Assembly: GCF_022447245.1 (NCBI RefSeq)
Contig: NZ_JAKVBC010000046.1
Span: 1 to 33,136, forward strand
Source of the DNA: Kordia sp.
Lineage (GTDB): Bacteria; Bacteroidota; Bacteroidia; Flavobacteriales; Flavobacteriaceae
Direction of reading: 5' to 3'
DNA length: 33,136 nucleotides
Under the pieces are notes generated by a model. That model saw only the letters and a list, made by a program, of their open reading frames with translations. It was not told the origin of the DNA and ran no database searches. The position numbers were made by a program, and so were the translations under genes. This document shows positions 4,396 through 24,862 of the stretch, in pieces. Positions within the stretch are counted from its first letter, which is position 1, and every line of letters begins with the position of its first letter.

Positions 4396-5043
4396 TTATT
4401 TTTTTACACAGCGAAATACATACTGAAATGTAAAGTAATTTTTGAAAAATCCTAATTTCTTGAAGACTCTTGGAATAAATGGAAAACCACCTTTGTAAGC
4501 ACTGTAGCGCATAACACGTGTTAATTCTTCAATTTTCATGTCTGCTTGATCCACTAATTCTTCGATGTTTTTTAGTGTAAACCAACGCATGTGTGTTTTA
4601 TCATATAATCCGCTTGGTTCGTACGGGAATTTCCCTTTAAATACTAAGTGCTTCAAAGTTTCTAAGTGCTGTACATTTGGCAAGGAAATGATCATTTTTC
4701 CCGTAGGTTTTAATGATTTTTCTAATTCCGACAATACATGCCACGGATCAATTAAGTGTTCTAAAACATCTCCCAAAATGATATAATCAAAATCTTCTCC
4801 TTTAAAACTCTCTAACAATTCTTGATCTTCAATGCTTTTTTCAATCACTTTTGTGATATTTTTTTTAGCATTTACAACCGATTCTTCGTGTGTTTCTACA
4901 CCAATGACTTCTGTTGCCATTCCTTGATCGAGCAACCATTTTCCATTGATTCCGTTGGAACAACCAACATCTAAGACTTTTAGATCTTTGCCTTCAATCA
5001 ATGCAATGATGTCTTTTCGAAGTTTTATGTAGGCTTGATTCAT
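4396..5043 (-). CDS. class I SAM-dependent methyltransferase in polysaccharide locus
   Basis: 215 residues. Motif I is VLDVGCSNGINGKWLL (residues ~23-38), followed by the acidic strand-2 residue in VIGVETHEE, motif II YIILGDVLEHLIDPWHVL, and MIISLPNVQHLETLKHLVFK; this is the Methyltransf_11/23 layout. The later FPYEPSGLYDKTHMRWFT is common to small methyltransferases in glycan loci. It may methylate a sugar, or cap the chain as terminal methyltransferases do in some ABC-transporter-dependent O-antigens, which would fit the Wzt-type ATPase with a C-terminal domain just upstream. That link is inference. It starts 7 bp after the ATPase stop. Confidence 0.82.
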   Translation of the reverse strand: MNQAYIKLRKDIIALIEGKDLKVLDVGCSNGINGKWLLDQGMATEVIGVETHEESVVNAKKNITKVIEKSIEDQELLESFKGEDFDYIILGDVLEHLIDPWHVLSELEKSLKPTGKMIISLPNVQHLETLKHLVFKGKFPYEPSGLYDKTHMRWFTLKNIEELVDQADMKIEELTRVMRYSAYKGGFPFIPRVFKKLGFFKNYFTFQYVFRCVKK

Positions 5044-5050
5044 TTTTGGG

Positions 5051-6379
5051 TTATTTAGGGTCTAAAGGTTGTTTTTTGATTTTCCACGATAACATTGGGC
5101 GCATCAGTCCTGGCCATTTTCCTGCGTACGGTCCGCGCACTCCATCACCTGTAGTATCATCAAATATTTCAAAACTTAATAAGTTGTCTTCAACCGCATG
5201 AATAATTTCTGGATTGTAGTTTCCAACAGCAACTAACAAGCTAAATTGCCCTTCTGCTAAGAAGTGACGAGGAATTTTACAAGTAGCTGTCACAATTCCT
5301 TTATTGGTTTTATCATGATATTCCAACCAATCTGGTGCATTAAATTCATTAGAAGCAAATAAGCGCTGTCCGCGTTCATTTACCACATGAATGATGGCTG
5401 TATTGTGATATTCTGTATTTAAATCCCAATAGGTAACTTCCACATACATGTCATCACGTACGCTAAAGCGATTGCACAATTCTCCTTTTTCATTACGAAT
5501 TGCTGCACTTTTTAGACGTCCAAAATCATTTCCTGGTGCCGTTTCCATGCTTTCCCATTCGTGATAAGGTTTGATATCCATTCCTTGATTTAAGTAGGCT
5601 TGAATTGCTGTATCTGTATCACCATCAAAAATGACTTCTCCATCTGCCAACACTACTGTACGTTGTGTTAGTTTTTGAATGGCATCCATATCGTGACTTA
5701 CAAATAAAACTGTTCGCCCTTCACCTTTGGCAATGTCTTGCATTTTTCCAATGGCTTTTTTCTGAAATTCCGCATCACCAACTGCCAATACTTCATCTAC
5801 TACTAAAATTTCAGGTTCTAAATGTGCTGCTACTGCAAATGCCAAACGTACTTTCATTCCAGAAGAATACCGTTTTACAGGTGTATCAACATATCGTTGA
5901 ACTCCTGCAAATTCTACAATTTCTTCAAATTTCGATTTGATTTCCGCTTTGGTCATTCCTAAAATAGCGCCATTCAGAAAGATATTTTCTTTTCCAGTCA
6001 ATTCTGGGTGAAATCCTGTTCCAACTTCTAACAAGGAAGCAATTCTACCTTTAGAACGAATGATTCCTTGCGTTGGCATGGTTACTTTGGAAAGAATTTT
6101 TAATAATGTCGATTTCCCTGCACCATTTTTTCCAATAATTCCTAATACTTCACCTTTACGCACATCAAAACTAATATCTTTGATTGCCCATACATAATTC
6201 GATTTTCCAACTGTATTACGTTTATTCCGTTCGCCAATACGTGTATACGGATCTTCTTTTCCACGAATTTTATGCCACCAGCGGTTTAGATCATGACTGA
6301 TAGTTCCTGTACCAATAACGCCTAAACGATATTGTTTCGAAAGCTTTTCTACACGTAATATGATGTCTTTCTCCTGCAT
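5051..6379 (-). CDS. wzt: Wzt-like polysaccharide ABC transporter ATPase with C-terminal substrate-binding domain
   Basis: 442 residues. The N-terminal ~270 residues are an ABC ATPase: Walker A GIIGKNGAGKST (~81-92), signature YSSGMKVRLAFA, Walker B EILVVDEVLAVGD and H-loop LFVSHD. A 60-residue insert between the first strands (SHDLNRWWHKIRGKEDPYTR) is typical of the teichoic/O-antigen exporter subfamily. The last ~150 residues form a beta-rich domain like Wzt-C, which in O-antigen exporters recognises the finished chain's terminal modification. It would power export of a lipid-linked glycan with the permease upstream. Stop and start overlap as TAATG at 6379, indicating coupled translation. 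The symbol is by family analogy. Confidence 0.92.
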   Translation of the reverse strand: MQEKDIILRVEKLSKQYRLGVIGTGTISHDLNRWWHKIRGKEDPYTRIGERNKRNTVGKSNYVWAIKDISFDVRKGEVLGIIGKNGAGKSTLLKILSKVTMPTQGIIRSKGRIASLLEVGTGFHPELTGKENIFLNGAILGMTKAEIKSKFEEIVEFAGVQRYVDTPVKRYSSGMKVRLAFAVAAHLEPEILVVDEVLAVGDAEFQKKAIGKMQDIAKGEGRTVLFVSHDMDAIQKLTQRTVVLADGEVIFDGDTDTAIQAYLNQGMDIKPYHEWESMETAPGNDFGRLKSAAIRNEKGELCNRFSVRDDMYVEVTYWDLNTEYHNTAIIHVVNERGQRLFASNEFNAPDWLEYHDKTNKGIVTATCKIPRHFLAEGQFSLLVAVGNYNPEIIHAVEDNLLSFEIFDDTTGDGVRGPYAGKWPGLMRPMLSWKIKKQPLDPK

Positions 6380-21496: not shown

Positions 21497-24400
21497 ATGA
21501 GTTTTTTAAATTCAGTGTTAAAAATGTTTGTTGGAGATAAATCCAAGAAAGACATAAAGCTTATTCAACCAATTGTTACCAAAATAAAGGAACATGAGCA
21601 ACAACTAGCACAGTTATCACTTGATGAGTTGAGAGCTAAAACAACACAATTTAAGTCGCGCATTACGGAAGCGTGCAAAGAAGTAAATGCTAAAATTGAT
21701 GCATTACAACAAGAAGCAGAAAGCATTTCGGATATTGAACGTAAGGAAGATATTTATCAGGAAATTGATAAATTGAGAGACGAAGAATATGAAATTTCTG
21801 AGGGTGTTTTATTTGAAATCCTACCAGAAGCTTTTGCGGTTGTAAAAGAAACTGCAAAGCGTTTTACAAATAATACAGAATTGAATGTAACTGCAACTCC
21901 GTATGATAGAGAGTTGTCTGGAATACATGATTATGTAACCTTAGATGGAGATAATGCTATATGGCAAAATTCTTGGGATGCAGCTGGAAAGCAAGTAACT
22001 TGGGATATGATTCACTATGACGTACAGTTAATTGGTGGTATCACAATGCATCAAGGAAAAATTGCAGAGATGCAAACTGGTGAAGGTAAAACTTTAGTTG
22101 CAACACTTTCTGTATACTTAAATGCCTTGCCAGGAAAAGGAGTGCACTTAGTAACCGTGAATGATTACTTAGCAAAACGTGATAGTGCGTGGATGGCTCC
22201 TATTTTCCAATTCCATGGATTAACGATTGATTGTATTGATTACCATCAACCAAATTCGGAAGCAAGAAGAAAAGCATACATGGCTGATATTACGTATGGA
22301 ACAAATAATGAGTTTGGTTTTGATTACTTGCGTGATAATATGTCACATTCACCAAATGATTTAGTACAACGTCCGCATAACTACGCTATTGTCGATGAGG
22401 TCGATTCTGTATTAGTTGATGATGCGCGTACACCGTTAATCATTTCTGGTCCAATACCACAAGGAGATTTACACGAATTCAATGAGCTAAAGCCAAAAGT
22501 AGCTGATATTGTTCAAAAACAGCGTCAATACTTAACAGGTGTTTTAGCAGAAGCGAAAAAATTAATTAAAGATGGTGAAACTAAAGAAGGTGGATTCTTA
22601 TTATTAAGAGTATACAGAGGTTTACCTAAGAACAAAGCATTAATCAAGTTCTTAAGTCAAGAAGGAATAAAACAATTACTTCAAAAAACAGAGAACTTCT
22701 ATATGCAAGACAACAATCGCGAAATGCACAAAGTAGATGCAGAGTTATTATTCGTGATTGAAGAAAAGAACAATCAAATAGATTTAACAGATAAAGGAAT
22801 TGAGTATTTATCGGTAGGAAGTAACGATAAAGAATTCTTTGTAATGCCAGACATTGGTGGAGAGATTGCCCAAATTGAAGCACAAGGACTTGAAAAAGAC
22901 AAGGAAATTGAGTTAAAAGAGCAATTATTCAACGAGTTTCAAGTAAAAAGTGAGCGTATTCACACCATGAATCAGTTGTTGAAAGCGTATACCCTTTTTG
23001 TAAAAGATGTTGAATATGTTGTGATGGACAATAAGGTTAAGATTGTCGATGAGCAAACTGGTCGTATTATGGATGGTCGTCGTTATTCTGACGGATTGCA
23101 TCAAGCGATAGAAGCGAAAGAAAATGTAAAGATTGAAGATGCAACTCAAACTTTCGCTACCATTACTCTACAGAACTATTTCAGAATGTATCGCAAACTA
23201 TCTGGAATGACAGGTACGGCAATTACGGAAGCAGGAGAATTATGGGAAATCTATAATTTGGATGTAATTGAAATTCCAACAAATTGACCAATTGCACGTA
23301 AAGACAAAGAAGATTTAATCTACAAAACGAAGCGTGAAAAATACAACGCTATCATTGATGAGGTTACCGAATTGTCGAAACAAGGAAGACCTGTATTGAT
23401 TGGTACTACTTCGGTAGAAATCTCGGAATTGTTGGGAAGAATGCTTTCTATTCGTAAAGTTCCTCACAATGTATTAAACGCTAAATTACACCAAAGAGAA
23501 GCTGATATTGTTGCGGAAGCTGGTCGCCCAGGACAGGTTACAATTGCAACAAACATGGCAGGTCGTGGTACGGATATTAAGTTAAGTGATGAAGTAAAAG
23601 CCGCTGGTGGTTTAGCAATTATTGGTACAGAACGTCACGATTCTCGACGAGTAGACCGTCAGTTACGTGGTCGTTCAGGTCGTCAAGGAGATCCAGGAAG
23701 TTCGCAGTTTTATGTGTCTTTGGAAGATAACCTAATGCGTTTATTTGGCTCGGACAGAGTTGCCAAGATGATGGACAGAATGGGACTGAAAGAAGGAGAA
23801 GTAATTCAGCACTCTATGATGACAAAATCTATTGAACGTGCACAGAAAAAAGTAGAAGAAAATAACTTCGGAATTCGTAAGCGTCTTTTAGAATATGATG
23901 ATGTAATGAATGCACAACGTGAAGTAGTATACAAACGTCGTCGTCATGCCTTACACGGAGAGCGTTTAAAGGTTGATATTTCGAATATGGTATATGATAC
24001 TGCCGAAATCATCATTCAAACGAATAAAGCCGCGAATGACTTCAAAAACTTTGAATTTGAGTTATACCGCTACTTCTCTATAGAAAGCCCAATTACAGAA
24101 GAGCAATTTGGCTCACTTACAGATGAAGAAATCATAGGAAAAGTATATACAGAAGCTTTTAGAAGCTACAATGAGAAAATGGAAATCAATGCCGAAATGG
24201 TATATCCAGTTATCAAAGACGTATACGAAAACCCTGAAAATAAATACGAACGCATTGTTGTTAAGTTTACAGATGGAACGAAAGAATTAAACGTTATCAG
24301 TGACTTAAAAGAAGCTTACGAATCGAAAGGGAAGCAAATGGTAAATGATTTTGAGAAAAATATTTCTCTTGCAATTATCGATGATGCTTGGAAAACACAC

Positions 24401-24862
24401 TTGCGTAAAATGGACGAATTGAAACAGTCGGTTCAGTTAGCCGTTCACGAACAAAAAGATCCATTATTGATTTATAAGTTTGAAGCTTTTGAATTGTTTA
24501 AAGAAGTAATTGATAAAGTAAATCGTGAAATATTAACATTCTTATTCAAAGGAGAATTAGCCGATAACAATCCTGATCGTGTTCGTGAAGCTCGTGAACA
24601 AAAACGTAAAAAGGACAACTATACAACTTCAAAAGAAGAAGTATTAAACAGTGATGAGAAAGAAGCAGCACAACGCGCTGCAATGCAACAATCACAACAA
24701 CGTCCGCAAGTAACAGAAACAATTGTTCGCGATAAGCCAAAAATTGGTCGTAACGAACGTGTAACAATTAAAAATGTTATGACTGGCGAAAACAAAACTG
24801 TAAAATTCAAACAAGCAGAACCTTTAATTGCTAAAGGGCAATGGGTTTTAATTGAAAAATAA
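21497..24862 (+). pseudogene. secA: secA, preprotein translocase ATPase, interrupted by an in-frame TGA
   Basis: The frame from ATG 21497 to TAA 24862 encodes a SecA of about 1,121 residues, the normal length in Bacteroidota, except for TGA at 23285-23287 (codon 597). The first part (596 residues) has Walker [19 protein letters not shown] and the DEAD-like [14 protein letters not shown], plus the preprotein cross-linking domain and [15 protein letters not shown], ending EIPTN. The second part, in the same frame, resumes [20 protein letters not shown], then NBD2 ([31 protein letters not shown]) and the helical scaffold and wing. The missing residue is the Arg of IPTNRP, so one base (CGA or AGA to TGA) explains it. 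There is no SEC-C zinc motif at the C-terminus, as usual in this phylum. Sequence otherwise looks fully functional; error, recent mutation or read-through cannot be separated here. Confidence 0.93.

Follow-up and report, generated by a model that had tools for sequence, protein, structure and literature searches.

The in-frame TGA in secA of a Kordia draft genome is most likely a sequence or assembly error

SecA and DnaB are essential in bacteria. The stretch of DNA analysed here (the window) is the entire contig C41, 33,136 bases long, of a Kordia sp. assembly, from the family Flavobacteriaceae, of 5.24 Mb in 82 contigs (genome G000; estimated completeness 99.75%, estimated contamination 1.07%). 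It contains a secA gene with a stop codon in the middle of its reading frame. Does the living cell carry this stop, or does it exist only in the assembly? A real stop would be a great surprise, as it would show that stop read-through can sustain an essential translocase.

The secA gene and the codon at the stop

The preliminary description of this DNA reported a TGA at positions 23285–23287 of secA, with the same frame coding for SecA on both sides. Reading the sequence directly (...ATT CCA ACA AAT TGA CCA ATT GCA CGT...) confirms the stop, which is followed by a C. The open frame 21497–23287 encodes 596 amino acids, with 596 sense codons upstream of the TGA. The frame resumes at 23288 and continues to a natural stop ending at 24862. 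The features of the locus are:

21497..23284, + strand: upstream part of secA; 596 codons with the SecA DEAD (NBD1) and preprotein cross-linking domains
23285..23287, + strand: in-frame TGA; all 108 readable loci other than the window's own have Arg or Lys here
23288..24862, + strand: downstream part of secA; 524 codons and the natural stop, with the P-loop (NBD2) and scaffold/wing domains
23372..23374, + strand: TTG, the first in-frame start-like codon, 28 codons past the TGA; an in-frame ATG first occurs at 23441

The two halves match the NCBIfam SecA profile NF009536 (PRK12901) at positions 2–599 and 601–1118 of 1118, in agreement with the earlier reading of the gene. Pfam SecA_DEAD and SecA_PP_bind are found upstream of the TGA, P-loop_SecA and SecA_SW downstream. 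All four domains are thus present in the normal order, although not in one continuous reading frame. These matches identify the locus as a real SecA gene carrying one stop rather than a chance open frame. The break had been described as close to a domain boundary, and it indeed falls where the DEAD/cross-linking part gives way to the P-loop domain.

The codon at the TGA site could be read in 110 of 111 loci (L036 is unreadable at the site and was excluded). It is TGA in two, both the window's own, Arg in 95 and Lys in 13; the 108 non-own loci come from two collections that possibly share genomes, and 80 of them were taken as the best among at least 590. The lost residue is therefore correctly given as the Arg of the IPTN-R-P motif, with the addition that 13 of the 108 relatives' loci have Lys instead. 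Lys also occupies the position in all three alignments listed among those to 24 distinct solved SecA sequences; the three cross the site ungapped. Among the 60 genomes searched, including our own, 58 match the searched part of SecA. The stop inside the match is found in G000 alone, and in none of the 57 matching genomes among the 59 others.

The nearest congener, G001, shares 97% identity with our SecA over the 620 residues searched, and 91.6% at the level of secA DNA. Between these two genomes pN/pS is 0.045 upstream of the TGA (131 synonymous and 23 nonsynonymous differences in 595 codons) and 0.054 downstream (105 and 22 in 524 codons). Purifying selection on the two halves is strong and of similar strength, with no sign of relaxed constraint past the stop. 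Our SecA has five private amino-acid changes, the stop included, compared to 2 to 18 in the ten congeners; one of the others sits ten codons upstream of the TGA. No sign of decay was seen in secA, and the strong constraint together with the few private changes indicates that the stop is either very recent or not real. An error bias towards T, suspected from a few of the lesions described below, found no support here, as the private SecA changes show no T-ward excess.

The preliminary description considered that another secA may exist. A SecA_DEAD family search of the genome returned one match only and hence no second secA, at 99.75% estimated completeness. An ordinary pseudogene beside an intact copy was rejected on this ground. 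A true secA pseudogene in a decaying genome, with export performed by another SecA, would be in line with the other broken genes of G000, some of which are broken more than once. However, the single SecA_DEAD match and the strong constraint in both secA halves speak against it, and we regard it as exceedingly improbable.

It was also proposed that re-initiation at the TTG at 23372 yields a split SecA. Such a working split protein, assembled from the 596-residue N-terminal piece and a re-initiated C-terminal piece, would agree with a break that separates the DEAD/cross-linking part from the P-loop domain. However, the first start-like codon is located 28 codons past the TGA, with the ATG at 23441 further still. 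The P-loop domain match begins at the first residue past the TGA, so a piece re-initiated at either codon would lack the start of the domain. As none of the 57 other matching genomes has a stop there either, the proposal is unsupported and a split SecA appears very unlikely.

Read-through, recoding and the tRNA array

TGA is the rarest stop in our sample of the genome. Among 423 long coding frames, the terminal stop is TAA in 307, TAG in 80 and TGA in 36 (premature stops are counted as well). The gene for release factor 2, prfB, matches positions 12–353 of its 353-position profile without stops. A reassigned code, marked by loss of RF2 and an unused TGA, was rejected, since the prfB frame has no stops and TGA ends 36 of the 423 frames. 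General recoding of TGA is likewise rejected, because prfB is free of stops, TGA is used to end genes, and all three stop codons are found at premature positions in the sample. Neither is the secA stop conserved in relatives (0 of 57 matching genomes), nor is TGA preferred over TAA, TAG and frameshifts in the other broken genes, where the lesion types are mixed. The suggestion that the stop is read through thus finds no positive evidence in the stop-free prfB, in a TGA absent from the relatives examined, or in other lesions that are TAA, TAG or frameshifts.

The genome contains an unusual set of tRNA genes. ARAGORN detects an array of 24 on one strand (L165 12266–15506; G000:C14 32266–35506), beside the ordinary tRNA set; at least 59 matches were found in the tRNA search of this genome, with 150 of 407 first-look candidates scored. 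Family matches to TROVE/Ro60, SPFH/Band 7, a T4 Rnl2-like RNA ligase, an RNase H-like protein and RlaP are located within about 7 kb of the array. TROVE matches occur in three of the 11 genomes of the genus (G000, G001 and G009), and tRNA arrays lie near TROVE in G001 and G009 too.

One member of the array is a tRNA-like gene with a TCA anticodon and a seven-base anticodon loop (G000:C14 about 35340–35413; L165 15339–15414, by ARAGORN). It scores 36.7 bits and is degenerate, with TTG in the T-loop in place of the usual TTC. In G001 the body of the gene is 98% identical over 66 of 86 bases, compared to 91.6% for secA DNA, and the anticodon arm reads the same. The T-arm of the G001 copy (L211 about 4934–5070) is longer by about 50 bases, while our copy is compact. 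A second TCA call in G001 is a different gene, whose anticodon is ambiguous on reading. A T-arm insertion can also be seen, on reading, in another tRNA-like sequence of our genome. The TCA gene is possibly Y-RNA-like; the Rfam scan named only tRNA and tRNA-Sec. The Rfam tRNA-Sec threshold is passed by another array tRNA, called Ser(tga) by ARAGORN (51.9 against 47 bits; L165 14117–14202 and L211 8171–8256), which is probably an ordinary Ser-type tRNA.

These observations bear on a second view of the stop, in which a real and recent nonsense mutation of secA is survived by UGA read-through, with near-cognate decoding or the TCA-anticodon gene supplying enough full-length SecA. The C after the TGA, the TCA gene with its seven-base loop, the continued constraint on both SecA halves and the rarity of TGA (36 of 423 frames) are all consistent with it. 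However, the body of the TCA gene is near-identical in G001, whose secA has no stop, and the gene is therefore unlikely to explain the secA TGA. The low score of our copy and its altered T-loop, the long T-arm of the G001 copy, the stop-free prfB frame, and the breakage of other genes by TAA, TAG or frameshifts argue further against read-through, which we consider improbable. The TCA gene was judged a coincidental candidate for an opal suppressor, and no link between the array and the secA stop was found. A more elaborate version, in which the TGA is real, the sole SecA is made via the TCA-anticodon tRNA of the array near the Ro60 and RNA-ligase genes, and protein export thus hangs on a tRNA-damage/repair locus, would be extremely improbable.

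Broken genes elsewhere in the genome

The secA gene is not the only essential gene with a break. The only full dnaB of the genome is split into two frames at L237 about 3783 (G000:C27 about 33783). Two strong DnaB-family matches are the halves of one gene, covering profile positions 1–172 and 157–434 in different frames, with the N-terminal domain in one and the C-terminal domain in the other. A third match of 24 bits lies in a separate frame of 453 residues. Our dnaB is one base shorter than that of ten congeners, in an A-rich run, and the gene is a single unbroken frame in all ten. With two essential single-copy genes bearing one small lesion each, among assorted lesions elsewhere, sequence errors are the simplest explanation. 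Such errors are not everywhere, as no breaks were detected in the genome's matches to rpoB, dnaE, ileS and prfB. A match on contig C34 was flagged with a TAA, but on reading the TAA region is upstream of an unbroken frame, which we take to be metG from our own reading.

We scanned 1,136,182 bases of the genome, including the window, and samples of two congeners as controls (780,000 bases of G001 and 420,000 of G009, a one-contig genome). More broken genes are found in our sample than in the two same-genus samples, with TAA, TAG, TGA and small indels alike, although the samples differ in position, ours being rich in contig starts and that of G009 coming from one closed contig. A coding scan in which stops and frameshifts are allowed but penalised detected five in-frame stops in our sample (two TGA including secA, two TAA, one TAG) and 12 frameshift candidates. 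The same scan gave no stops and two frameshift candidates in G001, and neither in G009. On reading, six of our 12 frameshift candidates look real (L113, L114, L172, L182, L237, L239), four are ordinary gene overlaps (L129, L170, L249 and window position 6379), and the two in L128 are ambiguous; the G001 pair are overlaps of the ordinary kind as well. The TAG, in L115, is doubtful, being only 21 bases past the modelled start.

A stop scan based on single-codon scores gave six candidates in 736,182 bases of our genome. One based on codon pairs gave 20 in the full 1,136,182 bases, and three in 380,000 bases of G001. Ten of the 20 read as premature: secA, L130, L166, L116, L131, L245, two stops in L182 and two in L250 (8348 and 8003). 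Five are ordinary gene boundaries (L123, L125, L126, L231 5106, L241) and five are of unsure status (L179, L231 18498, L238, L240, L250 7366). The G001 candidates comprise two boundaries and one ambiguous case (L226). The coding scan is the stricter of the two approaches and missed several premature stops of the codon-pair scan.

The affected genes are diverse. In L130 (14591; G000:C19), the in-frame TGA of a subtilase gene, whose product has MAM domains and a Por secretion tail, is flanked by MAM matches. In L166, an MGH1-like glycoside hydrolase matches its profile at 4–131 upstream and 172–356 downstream of a TAA. From the translations, we take L182 and L245 to be S41-type peptidases, L250 to be YHYH-type, L116 LanC-like and L131 adenylate-kinase-like. 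A Sua5/YrdC-family gene (L119 15777; G000:C8) has an in-frame TAA near its end and, on reading, a second stop beyond.

A homology test was made in both directions. With G001 probes, 11 of 140 genes are broken in G000, and with G009 probes 3 of 35, all three within the 11. In the opposite direction, probes from our genome found 0 of 133 broken in G001 and 0 of 38 in G009; between the two controls the counts are 0/33 and 0/34. Three of the 11 rows were dropped by hand, L117 15379 and L236 4443 as upstream of the likely start and window position 5632 as antisense to the gene at 5051–6379. For one row that was kept (L236 8145) the probe is antisense, and the sense frame there is likewise broken. 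With secA set aside, 7 of 139 compares to 0 of 133 (Fisher p = 0.015), or to 0 of 238 in pooled sets that overlap (p = 0.0008). The test was tightened after its first results were known, the final form removing overlapping shadow frames and stops in the first 30 residues. The first version had given 21 lesions (G001 probes) and 3 (G009 probes) in our genome, 6 (our probes) and 2 (G009 probes) in G001, and none in G009; many were in antisense frames or close to gene starts.

Some findings speak against error. Among the seven other genes retained as broken, four have more than one lesion. Evenly scattered errors would explain this less well than real decay of genes or stretches of poor sequence, and true pseudogenes may be present in the genome too.

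Origin of the stop and comparison with known systems

Since the same draft breaks dnaB and several ordinary genes, the secA TGA is most likely an error and not new biology. We hold this most likely because a search for a second secA found none, both halves are constrained, the relatives examined lack the stop, dnaB is broken, and breaks are more frequent than in the congener samples. Sequence comparison makes a sequence or assembly error the probable origin of the TGA, and we would not count the stop as a feature of the organism's biology. Our secA would then be an ordinary Bacteroidetes gene, intact in the living cell. The TGA would most likely come from one wrong base in a draft that has other errors as well, and the cell would make normal full-length SecA. 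We infer that this base was introduced during sequencing or assembly and is absent from the living cell. Among the possibilities listed in the preliminary description, sequence error has gained from the genome-wide broken genes, dnaB included, whereas a second secA, a split SecA and read-through have lost ground.

A related view is that a minority variant or a damaged template, from mixed strains or amplified DNA, entered the consensus, so that the TGA is present in some molecules and not in the living population. The 82 contigs, the 1.07% estimated contamination, and the several lesion types, partly clustered in genes, are consistent with this, and we consider it unlikely. Even a draft with 99.75% estimated completeness can contain stops and frameshifts in essential genes that look false, and such lesions should be treated with caution.

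The array on C14 resembles the inducible 26-gene trn operon of Anabaena PCC 7120 described in PMC10272220, in that 24 tRNA genes are clustered beside an ordinary set. It differs from the operon, as presented there, in its location near Ro60, SPFH and RNA-ligase genes and in its degenerate members.

A further point against error is that an essential-gene frameshift can be tolerated in life. In E. coli, spontaneous suppression of about 5% suffices to rescue a +1 frameshift in rpoB (PMC7022156). As in our secA, an essential gene there carries an apparently lethal lesion. In that account, however, the lesion was verified and suppression measured, while the secA stop is read from an assembly that has further lesions.

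The closest known system is the Bacteroidetes-type SecA itself (NF009536/PRK12901). Our secA shares all of its domains in order and covers the profile nearly end to end, and it differs in having a single in-frame TGA where IPTN-R-P has its Arg.
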